Shown: positions 1,054-16,599 of the stretch, in pieces
Layout of the letters: each line of letters starts with the position of its first letter
Numbering within the stretch: position 1 is the stretch's first letter
Made by a program: the position numbers and the translations under genes
Assembly: GCA_019694795.1 (NCBI GenBank)
Contig: JAIBBF010000028.1
Span: 1 to 36,445, forward strand
Reading direction: 5' to 3'
From: Flavobacteriales bacterium
GTDB lineage: Bacteria; Bacteroidota; Bacteroidia; Flavobacteriales_D; UBA2798
DNA: 36,445 nucleotides
Notes under the pieces: model-generated
Told to the model about the DNA's origin: nothing
The model's database searches: none
The model's input: only the letters and a program-made list of their open reading frames with translations

Positions 1054-2060
1054 CAGATGTAGTTGGGACAAATCCTTCGTTGTATCATTTTAGGCCGGAA
1101 TACATCGATGATATAAATGACTCCAAATTCAAGTGCACCACGGTACCGGCTGGCAGGTACGAGTTTAGAAATATTGATATCGTACGAAATACCAGCAACC
1201 CATTTATCGTAATCGATTCCTACTGATAAATACCCTGCATCCGAAGAACGATAAAATGCTCCTGCCCTTACAGCGCGGTAAACTCCTTTTTCGTTTACGA
1301 GAATATATCTCACTTGTGATCCTGCAATTAATTCCTTGTAGGTTCCCTGAAATTGGGAATATACCGACGGCACGATTTCGAGTTTGTCGTTCAATGCATA
1401 ATTCATGGTGGCATGAACATTAAAACGGCGGTCGAGTTGAATACTGGTTACATCGAAATAACTTTGTTTGGGTTTGGAAATATTTGCCAGGGCAATTCCC
1501 CCTGTTATGAAATTTCGCGCACTTAATTTTTTGTAAAAGGCTGCACCCAATTGCAGATTGACATACGTTCTGCTTTCGCGGGCAAAGTTTTCACCTGTGC
1601 TTAAGGATGGATCGTAATAAATTCCATTGTATTGGTTATCGAAACGCAAGGCATCATAACTCAGGTTTCTGCTGGTTAAACCTAACATGGCACCTGCTGT
1701 TATTTTTAAGGTGCTATCCTTCACCGGAAGAAAATAGCTGCCCGATAAATTGCATTGGAAGGTGTGGAATTTGGAATCGCCGGCAATGTCGTTATTAATG
1801 GTCAAACCCAATCCCAGGTTTTGTTTGTCCAGTGGCTGGTATCCGTCGGCCGATAGGGAAAAGGTGCTATAAGGCGTGGTCACTGATCTCCATTGGTTGC
1901 GGTAGTTTCCTGCAAAACGATAGGAACCCTCGAATAATCCGGTGTTGGCGGGATTTAAATTTAGCGGGGAAAGGTCAAACTGCGAATAATGAATATCCTG
2001 TCCGAAAGTATTCAGATGGGATATAAGCATAACCAGCAGGACTACGAGTGACTTCCGCAT
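1053..2060 (-). CDS. PorP/SprF family type IX secretion-associated membrane protein
   Basis: This 335-residue protein starts with a signal peptide (about residues 1-20, ending TFGQ) followed by the family hallmark DIHYSQFDLSPLNLNPANTG. The remainder has alternating aromatic and polar strands expected of an outer-membrane beta-barrel, with typical motifs GNYRNQW and GLGLTINND. PorP and SprF proteins are linked to T9SS and to gliding-adhesin export in Bacteroidota, and individual paralogues are thought to serve particular secreted partners. The likely partner here is the large secreted protein at 2407-6789. The downstream PD40 gene overlaps its stop by one base. A good TTTG-N19-TATCTTTC promoter ends 5 bases before the ATG, so the gene probably has its own near-leaderless start in addition to any readthrough. 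Confidence 0.9.
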   Translation of the reverse strand: MRKSLVVLLVMLISHLNTFGQDIHYSQFDLSPLNLNPANTGLFEGSYRFAGNYRNQWRSVTTPYSTFSLSADGYQPLDKQNLGLGLTINNDIAGDSKFHTFQCNLSGSYFLPVKDSTLKITAGAMLGLTSRNLSYDALRFDNQYNGIYYDPSLSTGENFARESRTYVNLQLGAAFYKKLSARNFITGGIALANISKPKQSYFDVTSIQLDRRFNVHATMNYALNDKLEIVPSVYSQFQGTYKELIAGSQVRYILVNEKGVYRAVRAGAFYRSSDAGYLSVGIDYDKWVAGISYDINISKLVPASRYRGALEFGVIYIIDVFRPKMIQRRICPNYI

Positions 2061-2065
2061 ATACC

Positions 2066-2096
2066 GAAAGATAGCGAAAAGTCCAATTCCAACAAA
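2066..2096 (-). promoter_or_regulatory. Bacteroidota-type promoter of the porP/sprF-like gene
   Basis: On the minus strand TTTG (2096-2093) is followed after 19 bases by TATCTTTC (2073-2066). This is close to the phylum consensus of a -33 TTTG and a -7 TAnnTTTG. Only 5 bases separate it from the ATG at 2060, so the predicted transcript would begin at or next to the start codon. Confidence 0.55.
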
Positions 2097-2100
2097 GTGC

Positions 2101-2370
2101 TTATTGCAGTTCGTTCAGACGATCAATGAATTCAAGGGTTTTCTCGTCGAGCTCCAGCTCCATTTTTTTGTATTCAGCTGCCGCATTTTCGCTTTTGCGG
2201 GCCTTTCCAAAACGGGTGATGAGGTCGTTACGGAACTGAATGGCATCGTTTAAAAGGGGACGAATTTTCTCTTCGCTTACATTTTCGAAATCATGCAGGG
2301 TTAAACATTCGTCGATGATGTCGAAACAAACTGCATTGATGTTCGCTTTCAGTAATTTTCTGGATGCCAT
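2101..2370 (-). CDS. Small conserved-looking cytoplasmic protein of unknown function
   Basis: This 89-residue protein has no signal peptide or membrane segment. It is charged and probably all alpha-helical, with a long C-terminal amphipathic stretch ending in TLEFIDRLNELQ. I do not recognise the family. It lies 36 bases downstream of the large secreted protein and 40 bases upstream of porP/sprF on the same strand. An exact -7 element (TAGTTTTG) sits 16 bases before its ATG, so it may be transcribed from its own promoter. The coding frame is convincing because it fills the interval, has an ATG with an A-rich leader, and has a soluble-protein composition. Its position suggests a cytosolic accessory of the surface cluster, but it could equally be an unrelated gene inside it. 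Confidence 0.75.
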   Translation of the reverse strand: MASRKLLKANINAVCFDIIDECLTLHDFENVSEEKIRPLLNDAIQFRNDLITRFGKARKSENAAAEYKKMELELDEKTLEFIDRLNELQ

Positions 2371-2386
2371 AGTTTTTAATTTTTTA

Positions 2387-2394
2387 CAAAACTA
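2387..2394 (-). promoter_or_regulatory. -7 promoter element upstream of the 89-residue gene
   Basis: The minus-strand sequence TAGTTTTG is an exact match to TAnnTTTG. It lies in the 36-base gap after the large secreted protein, 16 bases before the ATG. No TTG is visible at the usual -33 spacing, so only half of the promoter is supported. Confidence 0.35.
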
Positions 2395-2406
2395 ATAAAT
2401 TTTGCC

Positions 2407-5400
2407 TCAGCGCTGAAGGATTAATTTCCGAATCAGGTAATGATCGGCGTATTTCACTCTGAACAGGTAAATTCCATCGCTGTATTTATTCATGGCAATA
2501 TCCAGTTTTACCCTTCCGTTTAGTGGAATACGCTCCATGAGTTGTCCGTTGGAATTTAAAATTTCTAATTGTCCCTCTATATTCAAATTCCCGAAATCTA
2601 CCGTAACACGATCGAAGGTAGGGTTAGGATATAAATTGAACTGATCATTGTAGATTTCACGTATACCGGTTGCATCCATCACCAGAATGGTGAATGAAAG
2701 CGTATCCGTACAGCTGTGGTTACTCAGAATATTCGTAATGACATAAGATCCTGTATCGGCATAACTGTGTGTTGTGCTACTGAATGTAGATGATCCTCCA
2801 TCTCCAAAATCCCAATAGAAATTAGTGACCTGCGAACTGCTCATGTTAATGAAAGAAACGGATTGTCCAACCCCAACAATGGAATCATTCAGAATGAAAG
2901 AAGCCGTTGGATAAGGATATCCCGCATTTACCACCACCGTGTCTCGGTGAGCGCAGTTGTTGTCGTCGGTAACTGTTACGATGTACATTCCACTGCACAA
3001 ATCGGAATAGCTGTTGTTGTTGCCAAGACTATTGTTCCATTGCAGCACTAAATTTCCGGTTCCGCCACTGGCACTTGCATTAATTGAACCATCGCAATCT
3101 CCACCGCAGGTTTCATTGGTTCCGGATGCATTTACAAGTGGAGCATTTGGATTTTCAATTACAACAAAATCATTTTTTACACAACCATTTTCATCCGTAA
3201 CGCTTACCGTGTAAGTTCCGATATCGAGATTGCTGATAGCATTAGTCGTGCTGCTATCCGACCAAAGAATAGCATATGCACCGGTTCCTCCGGTGATGTT
3301 AACCGAAGCCGTTCCGTCCTGAATACCGCAATTTGCATTGGTAAAATTGCTGCTCAGAATTAATTCATCCGGTTCGGTTATTTGTATGCTTGTGTTCGCA
3401 AAACATCCTTTCGCATCGCGCACAAACAAATCGTAGTTCCCTGCGCAAAGTGAATAAATGGAATCGGTAATGGCAGCGTTGGACCATGAATATTCATAGG
3501 GAGATGTTCCTGAAATGATCGTTGCTTTAATGTTGCCGTTGCATGCGGCGTGACATAACATATTATTGGAAGAATAGGTAATTGCAACTTCGGGATTCAC
3601 ATGAACGATTGCGTTTTGTGTAATGGTGCTTGTGCTTGTGCCGTTTCCTGCAGTAAGCGTCACCGAATAGGTGCCTGCATTGGGATACATTACAACAGGA
3701 TTTTGCAAGGTCGAGCTGGATGGATTTCCTCCCGGAAAACTCCAGTTCCAGGTGTTGGTTCCACTCTGAGAAAGATCGCTAAACTGTACTGCGTTTCCGG
3801 CACAGATTTCAGGTTCGGGTGCAGAAAAAGAAGCGTAATAAGTGGATGCAATGCAAAAATTATGTGTTACGGTTGAACCGTAATTTCCATTGGAATTTGC
3901 ATTCTGAACAAGTACATTTCCTGAAGGATCTGTAAGTTGATACGAACCATTGATGTCGCAACCATCGGCCATTCCGTTAAGTCCGTTACCTTCGGTATCA
4001 TTCATGGTTAACGTGTAACAATTTGCGCTTAAACAAAAATGTTCGGTGACATGCGTACCACCGTCGATCCAGTTATTGACATTTCCGGGATAATCGCCCG
4101 GTGTTTTTTCATACAATACCGTTGCTCCGTTTTTTAATTGCCATGAAGTTTCTTCTCCAAAACAATCCAATTGTAAATTCAATTCAGTGTGTACTGCATT
4201 AACAATTCCTGTAAACGGTATGGTGAGCGTATCGTTAAACGGATCGCTGTCGTTCGTGTTGTTGGGAAGAGATGTCCAAACTCTAAACGTATGCGCACCT
4301 GCAACCACAGGTAATGCCGGTAATGTAATTTCAAGATTCGATTGTGGTGCAAGAATTCCATTCCAGTTATAAACTGCAGGTGTTCCGTTATCCACATTGT
4401 AGGAAATTACTGCTGAATATAAATTTTGATCGCTGCTATTGGTCAATACAATTTCCGGTGAGAAATGTGATCCGCAAACTTCATTGGTAGGATAGTGGAC
4501 ATCACTAATGCGAATATCATTGATGACATACGAATACAAATCCGATTCCCAGATTCCTCTTCCATACATGGCTGCGCGAATTTTTCCGCTCAGGTAGTGA
4601 ATTTCAAGTTCGCGCACAATACCGTTTGGTAATCCGCCGCTGAATAATACCCATGCTCCACTAGAATTATCGCGATAATAAACACCCAGATCCGTTCCGA
4701 GATATAAGGCATCGTTGCTGTTGTTTTGATACACGATGGTGTTGGTTGGAATGTTAGGTAATCCCTGCGAGTAATTGGTCCAGGTTTGACCCGCATTGGC
4801 TGAGTAATACACTTTCTGATTATTGCTAAATCCGCTTAAACAAACCCACACTTTTTCGGGATCCTGATTGCTAACGGCAATGTATTGAATGGCTGCACTG
4901 CCCGGGAGTCCGGAGGTGCGATCGGTAAATGCGCTTCCGTTGGTGGTGACGTAAAATTTATTGGTTTTGGAAACGTAAATATAATTTGGATTAGAAGGCG
5001 CGTAGGCAATGGCATTAATTTTTGTTTGTCCGGAACCAATGCTTCCTACTTGCGACCAACTTGTACCTGCATTGGTACTTTTCCATAATTGCGATTTTCC
5101 GACGAGCAATGTATTGGCATTGGTTGGATGTTGTACAAATGGTGTAACCCATTCGCCGTCTTCATCCACACCAGTTCCACCTGAACCTACTACATTGGAG
5201 AAGTTGTTTCCTCCATTGGTGGATTTATAAATATCTCCGTAATAATATTCACCATACATGGTGGAAGGATTGTTCCAGGATACCAATGCTTCCATTCCAT
5301 CGCCGCCTAAAACCTGACGATAATTTGGTGTGGAAAGATTTGTTCCGTTGTCCTGCCAACCGGAAATAATAATGGTTGAATTGGTTGGAGATCCACCCAT

Positions 5401-6789
5401 GCGGTAGATTTGTGCAACATGTAAATTAGAGGATAAATCGGTCCATGTATTTACATTGGCTTCGCGCACAAAAACACCGCCGTCGCATCCGGCATAAAGT
5501 TTATTGTTGTGCGGATTATATTCCAGCGTGTGAATGTCGGCATGTACATAGGGCAATCCTTGTGCGCCGTACCAATGCGCAACACAGGTCATGCTGGATC
5601 CTCCATTGGTAGATCGCCAGATATTGACGCCTCCGGTAAAAATGATTTCAGCATTATTTCTGTCCACCGCCAGAGCGAGATCGTAATTTCCTTGTCCGCC
5701 CGTATCGCCTCCATTTGCATCCCAGCCAAGAATATTCGGACTATCCGTTCGCAATGTAAAATTCAATCCCGCATCAGTAGAACGATAGATAGCGTAAAAT
5801 CCTTGTCCCACATCTGAAACAAGCAGATAAACGTAATTTGGATTTGCGGGTGAAACGCCAATGTTAATCCGAGCCATTACGGAGGATGATCCGAGTCCGG
5901 ATGTAATTTGTGTGAAGGTACTGGCAGTATCGGTAGAGCGATAAAATCTCCCGTTGCGCGCTGCGTATACAACGGATGGATCATTTGGTTTAAATTCGAT
6001 ATCTCGGTGAAGTGTTCCGGAAGTGAGTGTCCAGCTTTGTCCGCTGTTCCAACTTTTATATATTCCGTTAGCGGTGCTTGCAATAATGATGTTGGTGTCC
6101 ACCGGGTGAATTAAAATTTTATTGACGGGTACATCTACATTGTTGGCAAATGAAAGTCCCGTTGTATTCCAGGTTAAACCGCCGTCGTACGATTTATAAA
6201 TTCCGAGTCCCCACTGATCTCCTCCATCCTGATCGCCGGTTCCCATATACACGATATTTGGATTTAGCGGATTAAAGGTGATGGCAGATACCGCAAGTGT
6301 TGGAAGTTCGTCGGTGGTGCAAATCCAGCTTTGTCCTCCATTGGTACTTCTCCATAATCCACCCGCAGGAGCTCCAACGTAAATGATATTCGGATCGGTA
6401 GGATGAAATGCGATGGCATTGATTCTTCCTGCTCCTCCGCCATTGGGAACAGTGCTGTTTCCGATGTAGGACCAATTTCCTGCTGCATTACGAAATGCGC
6501 CGGCTTGATGCATTTGTTGTTGTATGATGGCGGTATTGCGTAATTGGTGTAAATCACCACTGGGGTAAACACGTGGAGCAACAAAATCTTCCCAGCGTTT
6601 AAATACTTTCCATCCTTTACCTCGTTCAATGGTTTTGCCCGCCCAGTAATTTTCAAAAGCGGCTTTGATGTCGTAAAAATTTGCAGAAGTGTCCTGCGCT
6701 ACTTCCCAATATGGACGATTGGTGTTTTGCGCCGAGAGCATGGATTGAATTCCAAAAAAGGAAATCAGTAAAAGAGATTTAATTTTCAT
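2407..6789 (-). CDS. T9SS-secreted multidomain surface protein: beta-propeller, PKD, SprB-like repeats, type A sorting domain
   Basis: This 1460-residue protein has a signal peptide (about 1-20, ending MLSAQ). Residues about 120-770 carry repeated BNR/sortilin-like blades (LWRSTNGGQSW, IYKSYDGGLTW, IYRSTDAGLNF, LWKSTNAGTSW). After a linker comes a Cys-containing module (DCFGEETSWQL to HNFCIAS), a PKD domain (about 986-1066), three SprB-like repeats (about 1067-1288; TVSVTDENGC and IVTVTDDNNC type), a second PKD domain (about 1289-1370), and a T9SS type A C-terminal domain (about 1386-1460; LYPNP, then GIYLFRV, ending RKLILQR). The protein is expected to cross the outer membrane through T9SS and be anchored or released at the surface. 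The propeller resembles sialidase- and VPS10-type folds, but I see no specific enzymatic motif, so adhesion or binding is at least as likely as glycoside hydrolysis. Confidence 0.92.
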   Translation of the reverse strand: MKIKSLLLISFFGIQSMLSAQNTNRPYWEVAQDTSANFYDIKAAFENYWAGKTIERGKGWKVFKRWEDFVAPRVYPSGDLHQLRNTAIIQQQMHQAGAFRNAAGNWSYIGNSTVPNGGGAGRINAIAFHPTDPNIIYVGAPAGGLWRSTNGGQSWICTTDELPTLAVSAITFNPLNPNIVYMGTGDQDGGDQWGLGIYKSYDGGLTWNTTGLSFANNVDVPVNKILIHPVDTNIIIASTANGIYKSWNSGQSWTLTSGTLHRDIEFKPNDPSVVYAARNGRFYRSTDTASTFTQITSGLGSSSVMARINIGVSPANPNYVYLLVSDVGQGFYAIYRSTDAGLNFTLRTDSPNILGWDANGGDTGGQGNYDLALAVDRNNAEIIFTGGVNIWRSTNGGSSMTCVAHWYGAQGLPYVHADIHTLEYNPHNNKLYAGCDGGVFVREANVNTWTDLSSNLHVAQIYRMGGSPTNSTIIISGWQDNGTNLSTPNYRQVLGGDGMEALVSWNNPSTMYGEYYYGDIYKSTNGGNNFSNVVGSGGTGVDEDGEWVTPFVQHPTNANTLLVGKSQLWKSTNAGTSWSQVGSIGSGQTKINAIAYAPSNPNYIYVSKTNKFYVTTNGSAFTDRTSGLPGSAAIQYIAVSNQDPEKVWVCLSGFSNNQKVYYSANAGQTWTNYSQGLPNIPTNTIVYQNNSNDALYLGTDLGVYYRDNSSGAWVLFSGGLPNGIVRELEIHYLSGKIRAAMYGRGIWESDLYSYVINDIRISDVHYPTNEVCGSHFSPEIVLTNSSDQNLYSAVISYNVDNGTPAVYNWNGILAPQSNLEITLPALPVVAGAHTFRVWTSLPNNTNDSDPFNDTLTIPFTGIVNAVHTELNLQLDCFGEETSWQLKNGATVLYEKTPGDYPGNVNNWIDGGTHVTEHFCLSANCYTLTMNDTEGNGLNGMADGCDINGSYQLTDPSGNVLVQNANSNGNYGSTVTHNFCIASTYYASFSAPEPEICAGNAVQFSDLSQSGTNTWNWSFPGGNPSSSTLQNPVVMYPNAGTYSVTLTAGNGTSTSTITQNAIVHVNPEVAITYSSNNMLCHAACNGNIKATIISGTSPYEYSWSNAAITDSIYSLCAGNYDLFVRDAKGCFANTSIQITEPDELILSSNFTNANCGIQDGTASVNITGGTGAYAILWSDSSTTNAISNLDIGTYTVSVTDENGCVKNDFVVIENPNAPLVNASGTNETCGGDCDGSINASASGGTGNLVLQWNNSLGNNNSYSDLCSGMYIVTVTDDNNCAHRDTVVVNAGYPYPTASFILNDSIVGVGQSVSFINMSSSQVTNFYWDFGDGGSSTFSSTTHSYADTGSYVITNILSNHSCTDTLSFTILVMDATGIREIYNDQFNLYPNPTFDRVTVDFGNLNIEGQLEILNSNGQLMERIPLNGRVKLDIAMNKYSDGIYLFRVKYADHYLIRKLILQR

Positions 6790-12476: not shown

Positions 12477-13847
12477 ATGAGAAGATTGATTACGATAGCA
12501 GGATTGTTTTTTAGTGTGGCTTTACCGGCCCAGAATCTGGTTTATAATGCTTCGTTTGATGAAGGATTACCGGATAAACCGATTCATTACCGTTCGGAGG
12601 GTGGATCATCGGGTAGGACAATCATCAGTCACTGGGTTTCGCCGAATATGTCCTCACCGGATGTGTTTAATTCGCCATTTAGTTCTGCAGAACAAATTCC
12701 CTGTGCGGTGGGAAGAAGTGGACGAGGAGTAATGGGTTTGGTGATGTCGGAAAGTAAAAACATGGCCATGCATTATGGCGGTTGTTTTAAAGAATATATC
12801 CAGGGCGAATTAAAAGATGGCCTGGAAGCTGGAGTGTATTACAGGGTTGAATTTTATATTGCTTTAGACCGCACTTCGGGTTTTATTGCGAATAACATCG
12901 GATTGTATTTTTCGAAGGAACGCATACATCGTGAAGATAAATTTGGATTTGATGTTCAGCCTCAGATTATGCTATCGAACGATTCGGTGGTTACTACTTC
13001 TGCGGGCTGGGTTCGTGTTATGGGGTTGTATGAAGCACAAGGGGGAGAAAAGTACATTACCATTGGAAGTTTCGGACAGGATTTTATGATTCCTTTATCG
13101 AACTTTAATTTGAAACCGGAGGTTCAATCCGGACATACCCATCGCAATGCTTATTATTACATCGATGATGTGTCGGTAAAAAAAAGTGATCCCACCGTGC
13201 CCGGAAATGTTTTTCCCGAAGAACCGAAGACAGTCAATTTTATTTTGAATGCAGGAGAAGAGGAGATGTCGCCCGAGTACCTTTCCGCCTGGATTTCCCA
13301 ATGGAAAATTGCCATTCCGAAATTGTCGCCACAAACCAATCTCAATTTTTTTATTGCATCTTCCGATAGTGTCACTTTATTCAGAAATAGTTCGGCAATA
13401 AGTCTGGTCAGTTCCAAGGAAAAAATTTCGTTTAGCAGCATAAAAGCATCGAATGATCCGGATTACAATGGATCGGTAATGGATTTTATTTCATTAATGA
13501 AGCGTTCGGAGGAACCGCAGCATTTTGTGTTGATTCACGCCGGAAGAAAAGGATTGCGTGCGGAAACCCGCGAGACCATGAAACGCGCATTTGCGGAACA
13601 GAACACCACCTTTAGTGTGATCCAATTAGGAGGAAGCACTCACAAGGAAACCCGTAACCTTGTAGAAAATCTTGGAGGCAGTTATCAGATTTGGGATAAG
13701 GAACATGAACAAGCCATGATGGAATCGCTGGATAAGGTTGAGCATTTCAGAAACCGACTAGTTTATGCCGAATCGCGCACGAAAAAGACCTTGTATTTTA
13801 TTGGTGCATTCGGATTACTGGCTATTATTATTGCAGGAACATTATGA
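12477..13847 (+). CDS. Envelope protein: jelly-roll-like N-domain plus degenerate vWA domain plus C-terminal anchor (paralogue 1)
   Basis: This 456-residue protein is the first of three tandem paralogues. A signal peptide spans about 1-18. Residues 19-235 form a domain that opens QNLVYNASFDEG and closes AYYYIDDVSV, with internal marks CFKEY (103-107), FYIALDRTSG (126-135) and GWVRVMGLYEAQGGEKY (177-193). This domain resembles the N-terminal jelly-roll, carbohydrate-binding-like module found ahead of OmpA domains in Bacteroidota. Residues about 253-425 align in layout with a von Willebrand A domain, but the MIDAS motif is lost: NAGEE (258-262) stands where DxSxS is expected, and HAGRKG where TDG is expected. 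A hydrophobic segment near 437-454 ends the protein and probably anchors it in the inner membrane facing the periplasm. Its stop overlaps paralogue 2 (ATGA). Confidence 0.8.
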   Translation: MRRLITIAGLFFSVALPAQNLVYNASFDEGLPDKPIHYRSEGGSSGRTIISHWVSPNMSSPDVFNSPFSSAEQIPCAVGRSGRGVMGLVMSESKNMAMHYGGCFKEYIQGELKDGLEAGVYYRVEFYIALDRTSGFIANNIGLYFSKERIHREDKFGFDVQPQIMLSNDSVVTTSAGWVRVMGLYEAQGGEKYITIGSFGQDFMIPLSNFNLKPEVQSGHTHRNAYYYIDDVSVKKSDPTVPGNVFPEEPKTVNFILNAGEEEMSPEYLSAWISQWKIAIPKLSPQTNLNFFIASSDSVTLFRNSSAISLVSSKEKISFSSIKASNDPDYNGSVMDFISLMKRSEEPQHFVLIHAGRKGLRAETRETMKRAFAEQNTTFSVIQLGGSTHKETRNLVENLGGSYQIWDKEHEQAMMESLDKVEHFRNRLVYAESRTKKTLYFIGAFGLLAIIIAGTL

Positions 13848-15196
13848 GAATACTTGTGCTTTTGATGTTGGTGTGCAATCAGCTTTCGGCACAAGAAAAT
13901 TTAATTCCTAATCCTTCTTTTGAAGACAGCAGTATAGCCACCCGTAAAAAATACGAAGGCATGGGAGAAGCGGGTCGTCCACTCTGCAAAGACTGGATTG
14001 TTCCAAATCAATCCTCTGCCGATTTTTTACCGGATCATCGTTCGATGTTACTGGGTTATCCCGCAGCTTTAGCACACAGTGGTGAAGGTCGGGTAGGAAT
14101 TATTCTGGCAGCAGGTTCATTTGCGCAGAATGCCGACAAAGGAAGTTATAAAGAATATGTGCAAGCACGCTTTATTCATCCGATGGATAGCGGAAAACGA
14201 TACCGGATTGAATTTTACATTGCACAAGATCGCATCGATAAACATTTTGCGCTGAACATTGGTGCTCATATTTCCAAAACACAATTGCTGCGGAACGATC
14301 ATTTTGCGTTTACGGAAAAGCCTCAGATTGTTTATGAGGAACGGAAAACAGTGACGGCCGAGCAAGGGTGGGTGAGGGTTTGCGGAGAGTATTTATCGCA
14401 AGGGGGAGAGGAGTGGATTACTTTAGGTTCTTTTGATACTACGCGTATGATTTCCATGCGTAGCATTGGTAAAAAACCGGAAAAGAAAAGTGTTCGTGCT
14501 GCACGTTATGCTTATTATTATCTCGATGATGTCAGCGTAATTGAACTCCGGGAAAATGAAAACTGCAAAAACAGCAGTAGTCAATTTCAACAATGGTATT
14601 TTTTAATCGATGCTTCTGAGTCGATGAATAAAGAAGGAAAATGGAATCATTTACCCGAAGGAATAGCACAGGGAATTTCCTATACCGCTGAAGGAGATCA
14701 TTTGCAGTTGTACGGATTCAATGATGAAGTTTTTTCATTGGGGAATGATACCATCGCTCAAGCGTACGATTATTCAGCATTACTTCAGTATCACCCAAAG
14801 GGTGCAACGGCGGTGCAGCAGGGATTAAAAAAAATCTATAGCGAAATTTCACAGCATCCGGAAAATACTTCGGTGGTGTTGATTACGGATGGTCAGTTCT
14901 CGCTTGGAGCATTTAAGGATACGATTGAACGTTATTACAAGCATAGAAATATCTCTTTTTCGGTGCTACAGATCGGATCGAAAAACAATAAATCGTTGCG
15001 GAAAACGGCAGAGCGAAATGGTGGTTATTACTTGTTATCTGATGATTCCGAATATGGCAGGGAAATTGCTGGTATTGTTCAGAATGAAATGAAGGATCGC
15101 GAAGAAGTGAATTATGGGAAAGGGAAATTTTACGTTACTCCCGCTTTTTTGTTTACCTTGATTCTTACGCCTATTATTGTTGTACGATGGCTTTAA
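13844..15196 (+). CDS. Envelope protein: jelly-roll-like N-domain plus intact vWA domain plus C-terminal anchor (paralogue 2)
   Basis: The protein has 450 residues. A signal peptide (about 1-17, ending LSAQ) precedes the shared N-domain: NLIPNPSFEDS (19-29), SYKEYVQ (101-107), EFYIAQDR (123-130), GWVRVCGEYLSQGGEEW (175-191) and AYYYLDDVSV (223-232). The vWA domain keeps a metal-ion-dependent adhesion site: DASES (256-260), a Thr in GATAV (about 322), and Asp in ITDGQ (349). It can therefore plausibly bind a divalent cation and a protein ligand. The C-terminal segment FYVTPAFLFTLILTPIIVV is a membrane anchor followed by RWL. The ATG overlaps the stop of paralogue 1, and the stop lies inside paralogue 3 by 10 bases, so the three should be made together. 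Confidence 0.85.
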   Translation: MRILVLLMLVCNQLSAQENLIPNPSFEDSSIATRKKYEGMGEAGRPLCKDWIVPNQSSADFLPDHRSMLLGYPAALAHSGEGRVGIILAAGSFAQNADKGSYKEYVQARFIHPMDSGKRYRIEFYIAQDRIDKHFALNIGAHISKTQLLRNDHFAFTEKPQIVYEERKTVTAEQGWVRVCGEYLSQGGEEWITLGSFDTTRMISMRSIGKKPEKKSVRAARYAYYYLDDVSVIELRENENCKNSSSQFQQWYFLIDASESMNKEGKWNHLPEGIAQGISYTAEGDHLQLYGFNDEVFSLGNDTIAQAYDYSALLQYHPKGATAVQQGLKKIYSEISQHPENTSVVLITDGQFSLGAFKDTIERYYKHRNISFSVLQIGSKNNKSLRKTAERNGGYYLLSDDSEYGREIAGIVQNEMKDREEVNYGKGKFYVTPAFLFTLILTPIIVVRWL

Positions 15197-16599
15197 GGAC
15201 AATTTTATTATTCGGATTAATGCACTTGACGGTGTCGCTGTTTTCGCAGGAAAATCTGGTGATCAATCCGGGTATGGAAGAAACTGTTCCCACTCCGCCA
15301 ACGCATCATTGGAATACTAAACTGAAAGTGAATACGCCACTAGCTCCGGATTGGTTTACGGCAACCGAAGCAACGGCCGATTATTTTAATTCGCATGAAT
15401 CGACCATGATGGGATCGCCAACGGTGGTAGCGCATCGCGGACAAGGTCGTATTGGTTTTATTTGTGGTGCGAAAAATAAATATACCCGTATCGATTATAA
15501 GGAATACCCAATGGGAAAATTGGTTCGTCCACTCGAAGCCAATAAAAATTACTGCGTCACTTTTCATATCGCGCTCGACGGTAGTTCGAAGTTTGCCATG
15601 GATTCCATCGGATTTTATTTTTCGCCTGAACCGGTAGGATTGCAGCAAACGACATTGATAAAAGTGAAACCTGCTTATGTGATGCCTGCTGATAGTATTG
15701 TGACTGCAAAAGATGGTTGGGTAGAAGTGAAAGCGGTGTATCCTGCCAATGGGGGAGAGCGTTACATTGTGTTTGGGAGTTTTTCTCATAAGGATCGCAT
15801 AAAATTAAAATCCATCGGCGAGCATCGTCCCAAACGATTTCATTTTTCGAAAGTGAAAAAATTAGCGTATTACTATCTCGATGATGTTTCCGTAAGCGAA
15901 TTACCGGATAGTACGGATCGTCCCTGCCTCAGTGGTAAAACAAAAAACGTAGCGAAGAGTAACCGTTATTTGTTTTTGGTGGATGTTTCCGGCTCCATGC
16001 ATGCCGGCGGAAATTTAGATTCAGTGAAGCAGGCCTTAAAAAATAGCATTCGCGAATTGCCGGCAGAAGCAGAAGTGGCCATGGTAAGTTTTTCGGGAGA
16101 ACCTAAATTGATTGTTCCGTTTTCTTCTCCGCAAGCTGCGGGACTAAATGCATCCATTGATTCGTTGAAACATGGAGGCTACACCAATGTGGCTAACTCC
16201 ATTGAATTTGCCTATAACTATCTTCAAAAATCGGAAAAGGCAGAAGGGACAAGCATCATGTTATTTACCGATGGAATTTTTGAAGTGAATGTGCCGACCA
16301 ACAAACGCATTCTTCAAAATTATCACGATCATCAGATTCGCTTTTCGACTTTCCAATTTGGCGATCGCACTAATTTTGATTTGGAAAAAGTAGCAGCAGC
16401 CACCAAGGCCGATTATATAAAAGTTCAATCAGAACAACTCAACGATATGCTGGCTCCGCATTTGTACGATGTAGTTGAAATTCCCAATAAAGAAAAAGTG
16501 TACTACACCCATATGCGATTTGAAATGATAGCTATTCGTCCACTTCGCTATTGGCTGTTTATTCTGATTGGCGTTGCCCTGGGGGTGAAGTATTTCTAA
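15187..16599 (+). CDS. Envelope protein: jelly-roll-like N-domain plus canonical vWA domain plus C-terminal anchor (paralogue 3)
   Basis: The protein has 470 residues, with a signal peptide (about 1-21, ending LFSQ). The N-domain repeats the family pattern: NLVINPGMEE (23-32), DYKEYPMGKL (103-112), FHIALDGSSKFAM, GWVEVKAVYPANGGERY (177-193) and AYYYLDDVSV (227-236). The vWA domain has a textbook MIDAS: DVSGS (266-270), Thr in GYTNV (333), and Asp in FTDG (362). A short hydrophobic segment (RYWLFILIGVALGVKYF) closes the chain. The start codon lies 10 bases inside paralogue 2. Downstream, the stop is only 13 bases from the convergent ompA-like gene. vWA proteins with membrane anchors often organise envelope complexes (for example BatA/BatB in Bacteroidota), but this domain pairing is not the Bat arrangement. 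Confidence 0.87.
   Translation: MALRTILLFGLMHLTVSLFSQENLVINPGMEETVPTPPTHHWNTKLKVNTPLAPDWFTATEATADYFNSHESTMMGSPTVVAHRGQGRIGFICGAKNKYTRIDYKEYPMGKLVRPLEANKNYCVTFHIALDGSSKFAMDSIGFYFSPEPVGLQQTTLIKVKPAYVMPADSIVTAKDGWVEVKAVYPANGGERYIVFGSFSHKDRIKLKSIGEHRPKRFHFSKVKKLAYYYLDDVSVSELPDSTDRPCLSGKTKNVAKSNRYLFLVDVSGSMHAGGNLDSVKQALKNSIRELPAEAEVAMVSFSGEPKLIVPFSSPQAAGLNASIDSLKHGGYTNVANSIEFAYNYLQKSEKAEGTSIMLFTDGIFEVNVPTNKRILQNYHDHQIRFSTFQFGDRTNFDLEKVAAATKADYIKVQSEQLNDMLAPHLYDVVEIPNKEKVYYTHMRFEMIAIRPLRYWLFILIGVALGVKYF

Follow-up and report, generated by a model that had tools for sequence, protein, structure and literature searches.

Tandem genes of a Flavobacteriales bacterium that fuse a jelly-roll-like head to a vWA domain and a C-terminal hydrophobic helix

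Here, we describe three overlapping genes (P1, P2, and P3) in a stretch of Flavobacteriales DNA of 36,445 nt (the window), each of which encodes a signal peptide, an N-domain (the head), a vWA domain, and a C-terminal hydrophobic helix (the tail). The head–vWA–tail fusion is real and rare, and its design apparently had not been described before. P2 and P3 carry an intact MIDAS in the vWA domain, and P1 has lost it.

Gene layout, vWA domains, and heads

The three ORFs all lie on the (+) strand (Table 1), with P1 starting 60 bases downstream of recG and P3 ending 13 bases from a convergent PD40/OmpA gene. All three show the domain order given in a preliminary description of this DNA (signal peptide, N-domain, vWA domain, and membrane segment), the vWA domain of P1 being degenerate, and the overlaps given there, i.e., 4 bases for P1/P2, where the P2 start codon overlaps the P1 stop codon, and 10 bases for P2/P3, were recovered from the ORF coordinates. 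Judging from these frame overlaps, P1 to P3 may be translationally coupled and expressed in a fixed ratio. Promoter- and terminator-like sites at the locus were not clearly above shuffled sequence and thus give no information on an operon.

Table 1. Features of the three-gene locus (positions are those of the window; hydropathy is the Kyte-Doolittle mean of the hydrophobic 19-mer)
Feature	Position	Strand	Description
P1	12477-13847	+	456 aa: signal peptide, N-domain, MIDAS-less vWA-like domain, C-terminal hydrophobic helix
P1 N-domain	12531-13193	+	aa 19-239; CBM4/16/22-like jelly roll; profile match and model
P1 vWA-like domain, degenerate	13224-13751	+	about aa 250-425
P1 NAGEE, where DxSxS is expected	13248-13262	+	
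P1 HAG, where TDG is expected	13536	+	
P1 C-terminal hydrophobic helix	13788-13844	+	aa 438-456; hydropathy 2.12; helix in model, middling confidence
P2	13844-15196	+	450 aa: signal peptide, N-domain, intact-MIDAS vWA, C-terminal hydrophobic helix
P2 N-domain	13895-14554	+	aa 18-237; profile match
P2 vWA domain	14591-15088	+	about aa 250-415; Pfam 8e-9
P2 MIDAS	DASES 14609-14623, GAT 14801, TDG 14885	+	
P2 C-terminal hydrophobic helix	15128-15193	+	aa 429-450; hydropathy 2.16
P3	15187-16599	+	470 aa: signal peptide, N-domain, intact-MIDAS vWA, C-terminal hydrophobic helix
P3 N-domain	15250-15909	+	aa 22-241; profile match and model
P3 vWA domain	15958-16461	+	about aa 258-425; Pfam 1e-17; model Z about 20 vs solved vWA
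P3 MIDAS	DVSGS 15982-15996, GGYT 16174, TDG 16267	+	
P3 C-terminal hydrophobic helix	16525-16596	+	aa 447-470; hydropathy 1.71; helix 450-469, block-mean pLDDT 77-87

Each protein has a hydrophobic N-terminal signal sequence, and each head opens with NL(V/I)xN..(F/M)(E/D), shares the core elements KEY, GWVxV, and GGE, and ends in AYYYxDDVSV. Pairwise identity among P1, P2, and P3 is 35–41% for the heads and 17–25% for the vWA domains. Most members of the fusion, in both of the orders in which it was found (see below), have a Y-[ST]-type motif ahead of the tail. Basic residues precede the tail, on the would-be periplasmic side, and a basic cluster is lacking behind it; the topology proposed below thus has no support from the positive-inside rule.

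The Pfam vWA matches of P2 and P3 are significant, while the VWA_3 match of P1 (E-value of 0.021) falls under the cut-off; the vWA assignment of P1 rests on alignment and an AlphaFold model. Specifically, the P1 model (mean pLDDT of 72) matches vWA-type chains over residues 249–418 with a Z of about 10, and the P3 model (mean pLDDT of 81) has the solved BatB vWA domain (3ibs) among its fold matches. The vWA fold, which the preliminary description had put forward as a matter for structure prediction, is thus present in both models. A PDB sequence search with the alignment returned almost only vWA domains. Two further names, the sortase-target family TIGR03788 (24 bits against a cut-off of 552) and magnesium/cobalt chelatase, were set aside as generic vWA matches.

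Contrary to what the same description had implied, the three vWA domains are not equivalent partners. P2 (DASES, T, and TDG) and P3 (DVSGS, T, and TDG) keep the MIDAS residues, which the vWA fold does not require, and P1 has lost them, with NAGEE in place of DxSxS and HAG in place of TDG. The loss is shared by the P1 orthologue in a genome of the same genus, G001 (DPSHA and FQDK), and L193, a tailed copy from another order, has become MIDAS-degenerate by a separate loss. Identity to the G001 orthologue is 52% (head), 48% (tail), and 20% (vWA) for P1 and 65%, 56%, and 53%, respectively, for P3. With 20% against the 53% of P3, the P1 vWA domain is thus freed from the constraint that acts on its P3 counterpart. 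Since the P1 head and tail are conserved above the vWA domain, the function shared by the proteins seems to lie in these two parts, with the MIDAS dispensable in P1.

Because vWA matches dominated the fold search with P3, we took the head fold from the P1 model. The P1 head matches CBM4, CBM16, CBM61, CBM22, HpiC1-type cyclases, and gingipain adhesin domains with a Z of about 10–12.6 (about 12 for CBM4/CBM16), at low identities of about 8–19%. No Pfam family covers the heads of P1 to P3, and CBM_4_9 (PF02018) has no match there at an E-value of up to 1, let alone one above its gathering score. Within a wider set of N-domains (n = 63), weak Pfam matches to CBM_4_9 (34/63, counted at an E-value of up to 0.1; best, 1.6e-5) and to HpiC1-like domains (24/63) were found. 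The NCBIfam choice-of-anchor J family scores 13.4 bits with P3, under its 30-bit cut-off, and matches four members of the set (best, 7e-4); no family-library name other than vWA exceeded its cut-off for P1 to P3. The head therefore shares a fold and weak profile matches with CBM4/16/22 modules, HpiC1 Stig cyclases, and gingipain cleaved-adhesin domains. The preliminary description had called it jelly-roll-like, which agrees with the CBM4/16/22-like class of the P1 model, and this fold match makes binding of a glycan or a protein plausible.

Distribution of the head and of the fusion

The head occurs phylum-wide. Among 91 named head-bearing ORFs, it is joined to OmpA in 69, as expected from the earlier statement that OmpA is its main partner in Bacteroidota, to a CHU_C-type type IX domain in 9, and to another domain or none in 13, with vWA in 0/91. 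The genome from which the window derives also has the head with OmpA (one protein) and with CHU_C (three proteins). A single-sequence scan returned no close named relatives.

Within the window's family, the three genomes examined carry three, two, and one head–vWA copies. In G001, P2 is missing and the P1 and P3 orthologues overlap by 4 bases, and the third genome (G002) has one head–vWA gene directly after recG. The three-component system that the preliminary description had suggested does not hold as a general arrangement, since this copy-number series shows that the three subunits are not an obligate conserved complex. The remaining head–vWA proteins noticed in the order (399 genomes) are longer, namely, head–vWA–vWA forms (~660 aa; families f3, f9, and f11), forms of ~690 aa (f13 and f9), and one head–head–vWA protein.

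The class sample included a genus of another order (g106), of which five of seven genomes were examined, the other two being incomplete. These contain one to four single head–vWA proteins per genome, with a tandem pair in one genome; four of the proteins, tandem pair included, are tailed, L193 among them. The tandem arrangement of three paralogues stands for this locus, and the architecture itself extends more widely than had been described. That it is not a product of chance is shown by homologous loci, which occur in the two other family genomes and in a second order. In a phylum-wide sample of 395 genomes, no further full-length members were found at an E-value of 1e-50, a threshold that weaker-scoring copies could escape.

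In a tree of heads, every head–vWA protein except the head–head–vWA form lies on one side of one supported branch (98/96 with the f49 head–vWA proteins included and 100/93 without them). The simplest reading of these sequences would be a single fusion followed by duplication, gain and loss of the tail, and patchy retention or transfer.

Possible function and related systems

Our leading interpretation, to which we would give about an even chance, is that P1 to P3 are adhesion proteins of the periplasm, anchored in the inner membrane and carrying a glycan-type head, with the MIDAS as a partner site in P2 and P3 and with P1 as a MIDAS-dead companion. The three paralogues would be exported by Sec and, after signal cleavage, reside in the cell envelope as single-pass proteins, with the CBM4_9/HpiC1-like head and the vWA domain in the periplasm and the C-terminal helix holding them at the inner membrane; export, anchoring, and periplasmic display would follow from the signal peptide and the tail. 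The head most likely binds a glycan or a glycosylated envelope protein, as its fold suggests. In P2 and P3, the MIDAS most likely uses a divalent metal to hold on to an acidic residue in a partner protein, a proposal based on the intact motif and on McaA of Magnetospirillum, the MIDAS of which is required for localisation and function (PMC9512821). P1 most likely accompanies P2 and P3 in their patch of membrane without gripping a partner itself and would supply head and helix contacts. Membership of a heteromer is suggested by the frame overlap, which persists in G001 although P2 is absent there, and by the conserved head and tail of the MIDAS-dead P1. In favor of this interpretation, the head appears to have been module-swapped with OmpA and CHU_C type IX partners (69/91 and 9/91); against it stand the lack of a conserved partner gene in the neighbourhoods examined, the positive-inside mismatch, and the 3-2-1 copy numbers, the last of which count against an obligate trimer.

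The copy numbers, together with the absence of P2 from the same-genus genome, the 20% identity of the P1 vWA domain, and the mostly single, dispersed copies of the other order, would also fit independent lineage-specific paralogues, i.e., three homomeric receptors or adhesins that arose by tandem duplication, bind different ligands, and form no hetero-complex, the P1 vWA domain being a decaying spacer. This is a real but tentative possibility, as the P1 and P3 orthologues of G001 still overlap by 4 bases without P2 and the head and tail of P1 stay conserved. Alternatively, the heads might bind the homologous heads of N-domain–OmpA proteins and so link the inner membrane to the peptidoglycan or the outer membrane. 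The window's genome does have the same head on OmpA and on tailed vWA proteins, and N-domain–OmpA genes are often tandem in the order, but in this genome the genes of the two kinds are not linked and the head–head contact is putative, which makes such an envelope bridge quite improbable.

Membrane-associated vWA proteins of Bacteroidota are classically Bat proteins, and P1 to P3 resemble BatA/BatB as putative membrane-associated periplasmic vWA proteins, with a MIDAS in P2 and P3. Bat proteins are not known to have a jelly-roll head. P1 to P3 differ from them in lacking the BatA N-terminal region (PF07584; no match at an E-value of up to 1) and in having, besides the signal peptide, one C-terminal helix only rather than transmembrane helices flanking the vWA domain; no moxR or other bat gene was found among the window proteins scanned, and a genuine BatA lies elsewhere in the genome (G000:C38). 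The earlier view that the three proteins are distinct from Bat is therefore well founded. Motor-coupled vWA force transducers, proposed in 2025, are marked by an N-terminal transmembrane segment with an SHLS motif or by a transpore helix with a conserved Asp, and by a tolQ-like neighbour (PMC12204202). In contrast, the helix of P1 to P3 is at the C-terminal end and has no such Asp, and no tolQ-like gene was found among the window genes scanned. A Bat/MoxR-type or motor-coupled system is thus largely excluded, and we consider it very improbable here.

Of the other related proteins, McaA resembles the tailed vWA proteins in layout, with a signal peptide, a periplasmic vWA domain with a MIDAS, and one transmembrane helix after the vWA domain; it differs in its cytoplasmic C-terminal region and its role in magnetosome positioning, and no jelly-roll head is described for it (PMC9512821). 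N-domain–OmpA proteins (unnamed, in Bacteroidota) share the signal peptide and a homologous head of ~220 aa and are often tandem (as at L044 and L046) but end in a peptidoglycan-binding OmpA domain in place of vWA and tail, and their heads fall on the opposite side of the 98/96 branch. The head–vWA–vWA proteins of other Flavobacteriales families and the f49 head–vWA proteins have homologous heads and vWA domains on the same supported side, but they have two vWA domains or, in many cases, no tail, and lie at other loci. No description of a head–vWA fusion was found in the curated families or the open-licence literature searched, in line with the preliminary statement that no system of this form had been described.

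It is also conceivable, though rather unlikely in our estimate, that these proteins represent an undescribed Bacteroidota class of inner-membrane-anchored periplasmic receptors, in which a phylum-wide glycan-type head was fused once to vWA and mixed MIDAS-active and MIDAS-dead complexes act in an integrin-type manner while facing the cell's own envelope. Irrespective of this reading, different C-terminal parts place one head at three likely envelope sites, namely peptidoglycan (OmpA), cell surface (type IX sorting domain), and inner membrane (vWA and tail), and if it binds an envelope glycan, these proteins would provide matched tools for asking, layer by layer, what is sensed or held by Bacteroidota. 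MIDAS loss beside intact copies, seen at least two times, would be a sign of mixed complexes that can be put to the test.

Neighbourhoods of head genes

Tandem head–OmpA genes recur within a conserved neighbourhood in Flavobacteriales (L044, L045, L046, L048, and L052); at several of these loci, the neighbours include a hemE-like gene and one that encodes a multi-pass transporter-like protein. A hemE gene, named from the look of its sequence, adjoins a head–OmpA gene in relatives (as at L056). In the window's genome (G000, 99.92% complete), compared with L056 and G002:C118, hemE was not found, as a gap or a loss, and it is present in both other family members. In three g106 genomes, tailless head–vWA genes (L191, L194, and L198) lie between lnt-like and hemH-like genes, placing head genes near haem genes in two orders.

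The convergent neighbour of P3 (16616-18646, (−) strand) encodes a PD40/OmpA protein whose nearest NCBIfam families are the outer-membrane-integrity protein CHU_0125 (208 bits against a cut-off of 620) and PorE (189 against 600), well under both cut-offs. Elsewhere in the window (1056-6789, (−) strand), a PorP/SprF gene adjoins one whose 1460-aa product is of the Sortilin/PKD/SprB-repeat type and ends in a type IX sorting tail, likely a secreted surface protein and its partner. Finally, a 1913-aa protein of an uncultured member of the Chitinophagales (L100, 220-5961) carries three head domains in one chain.
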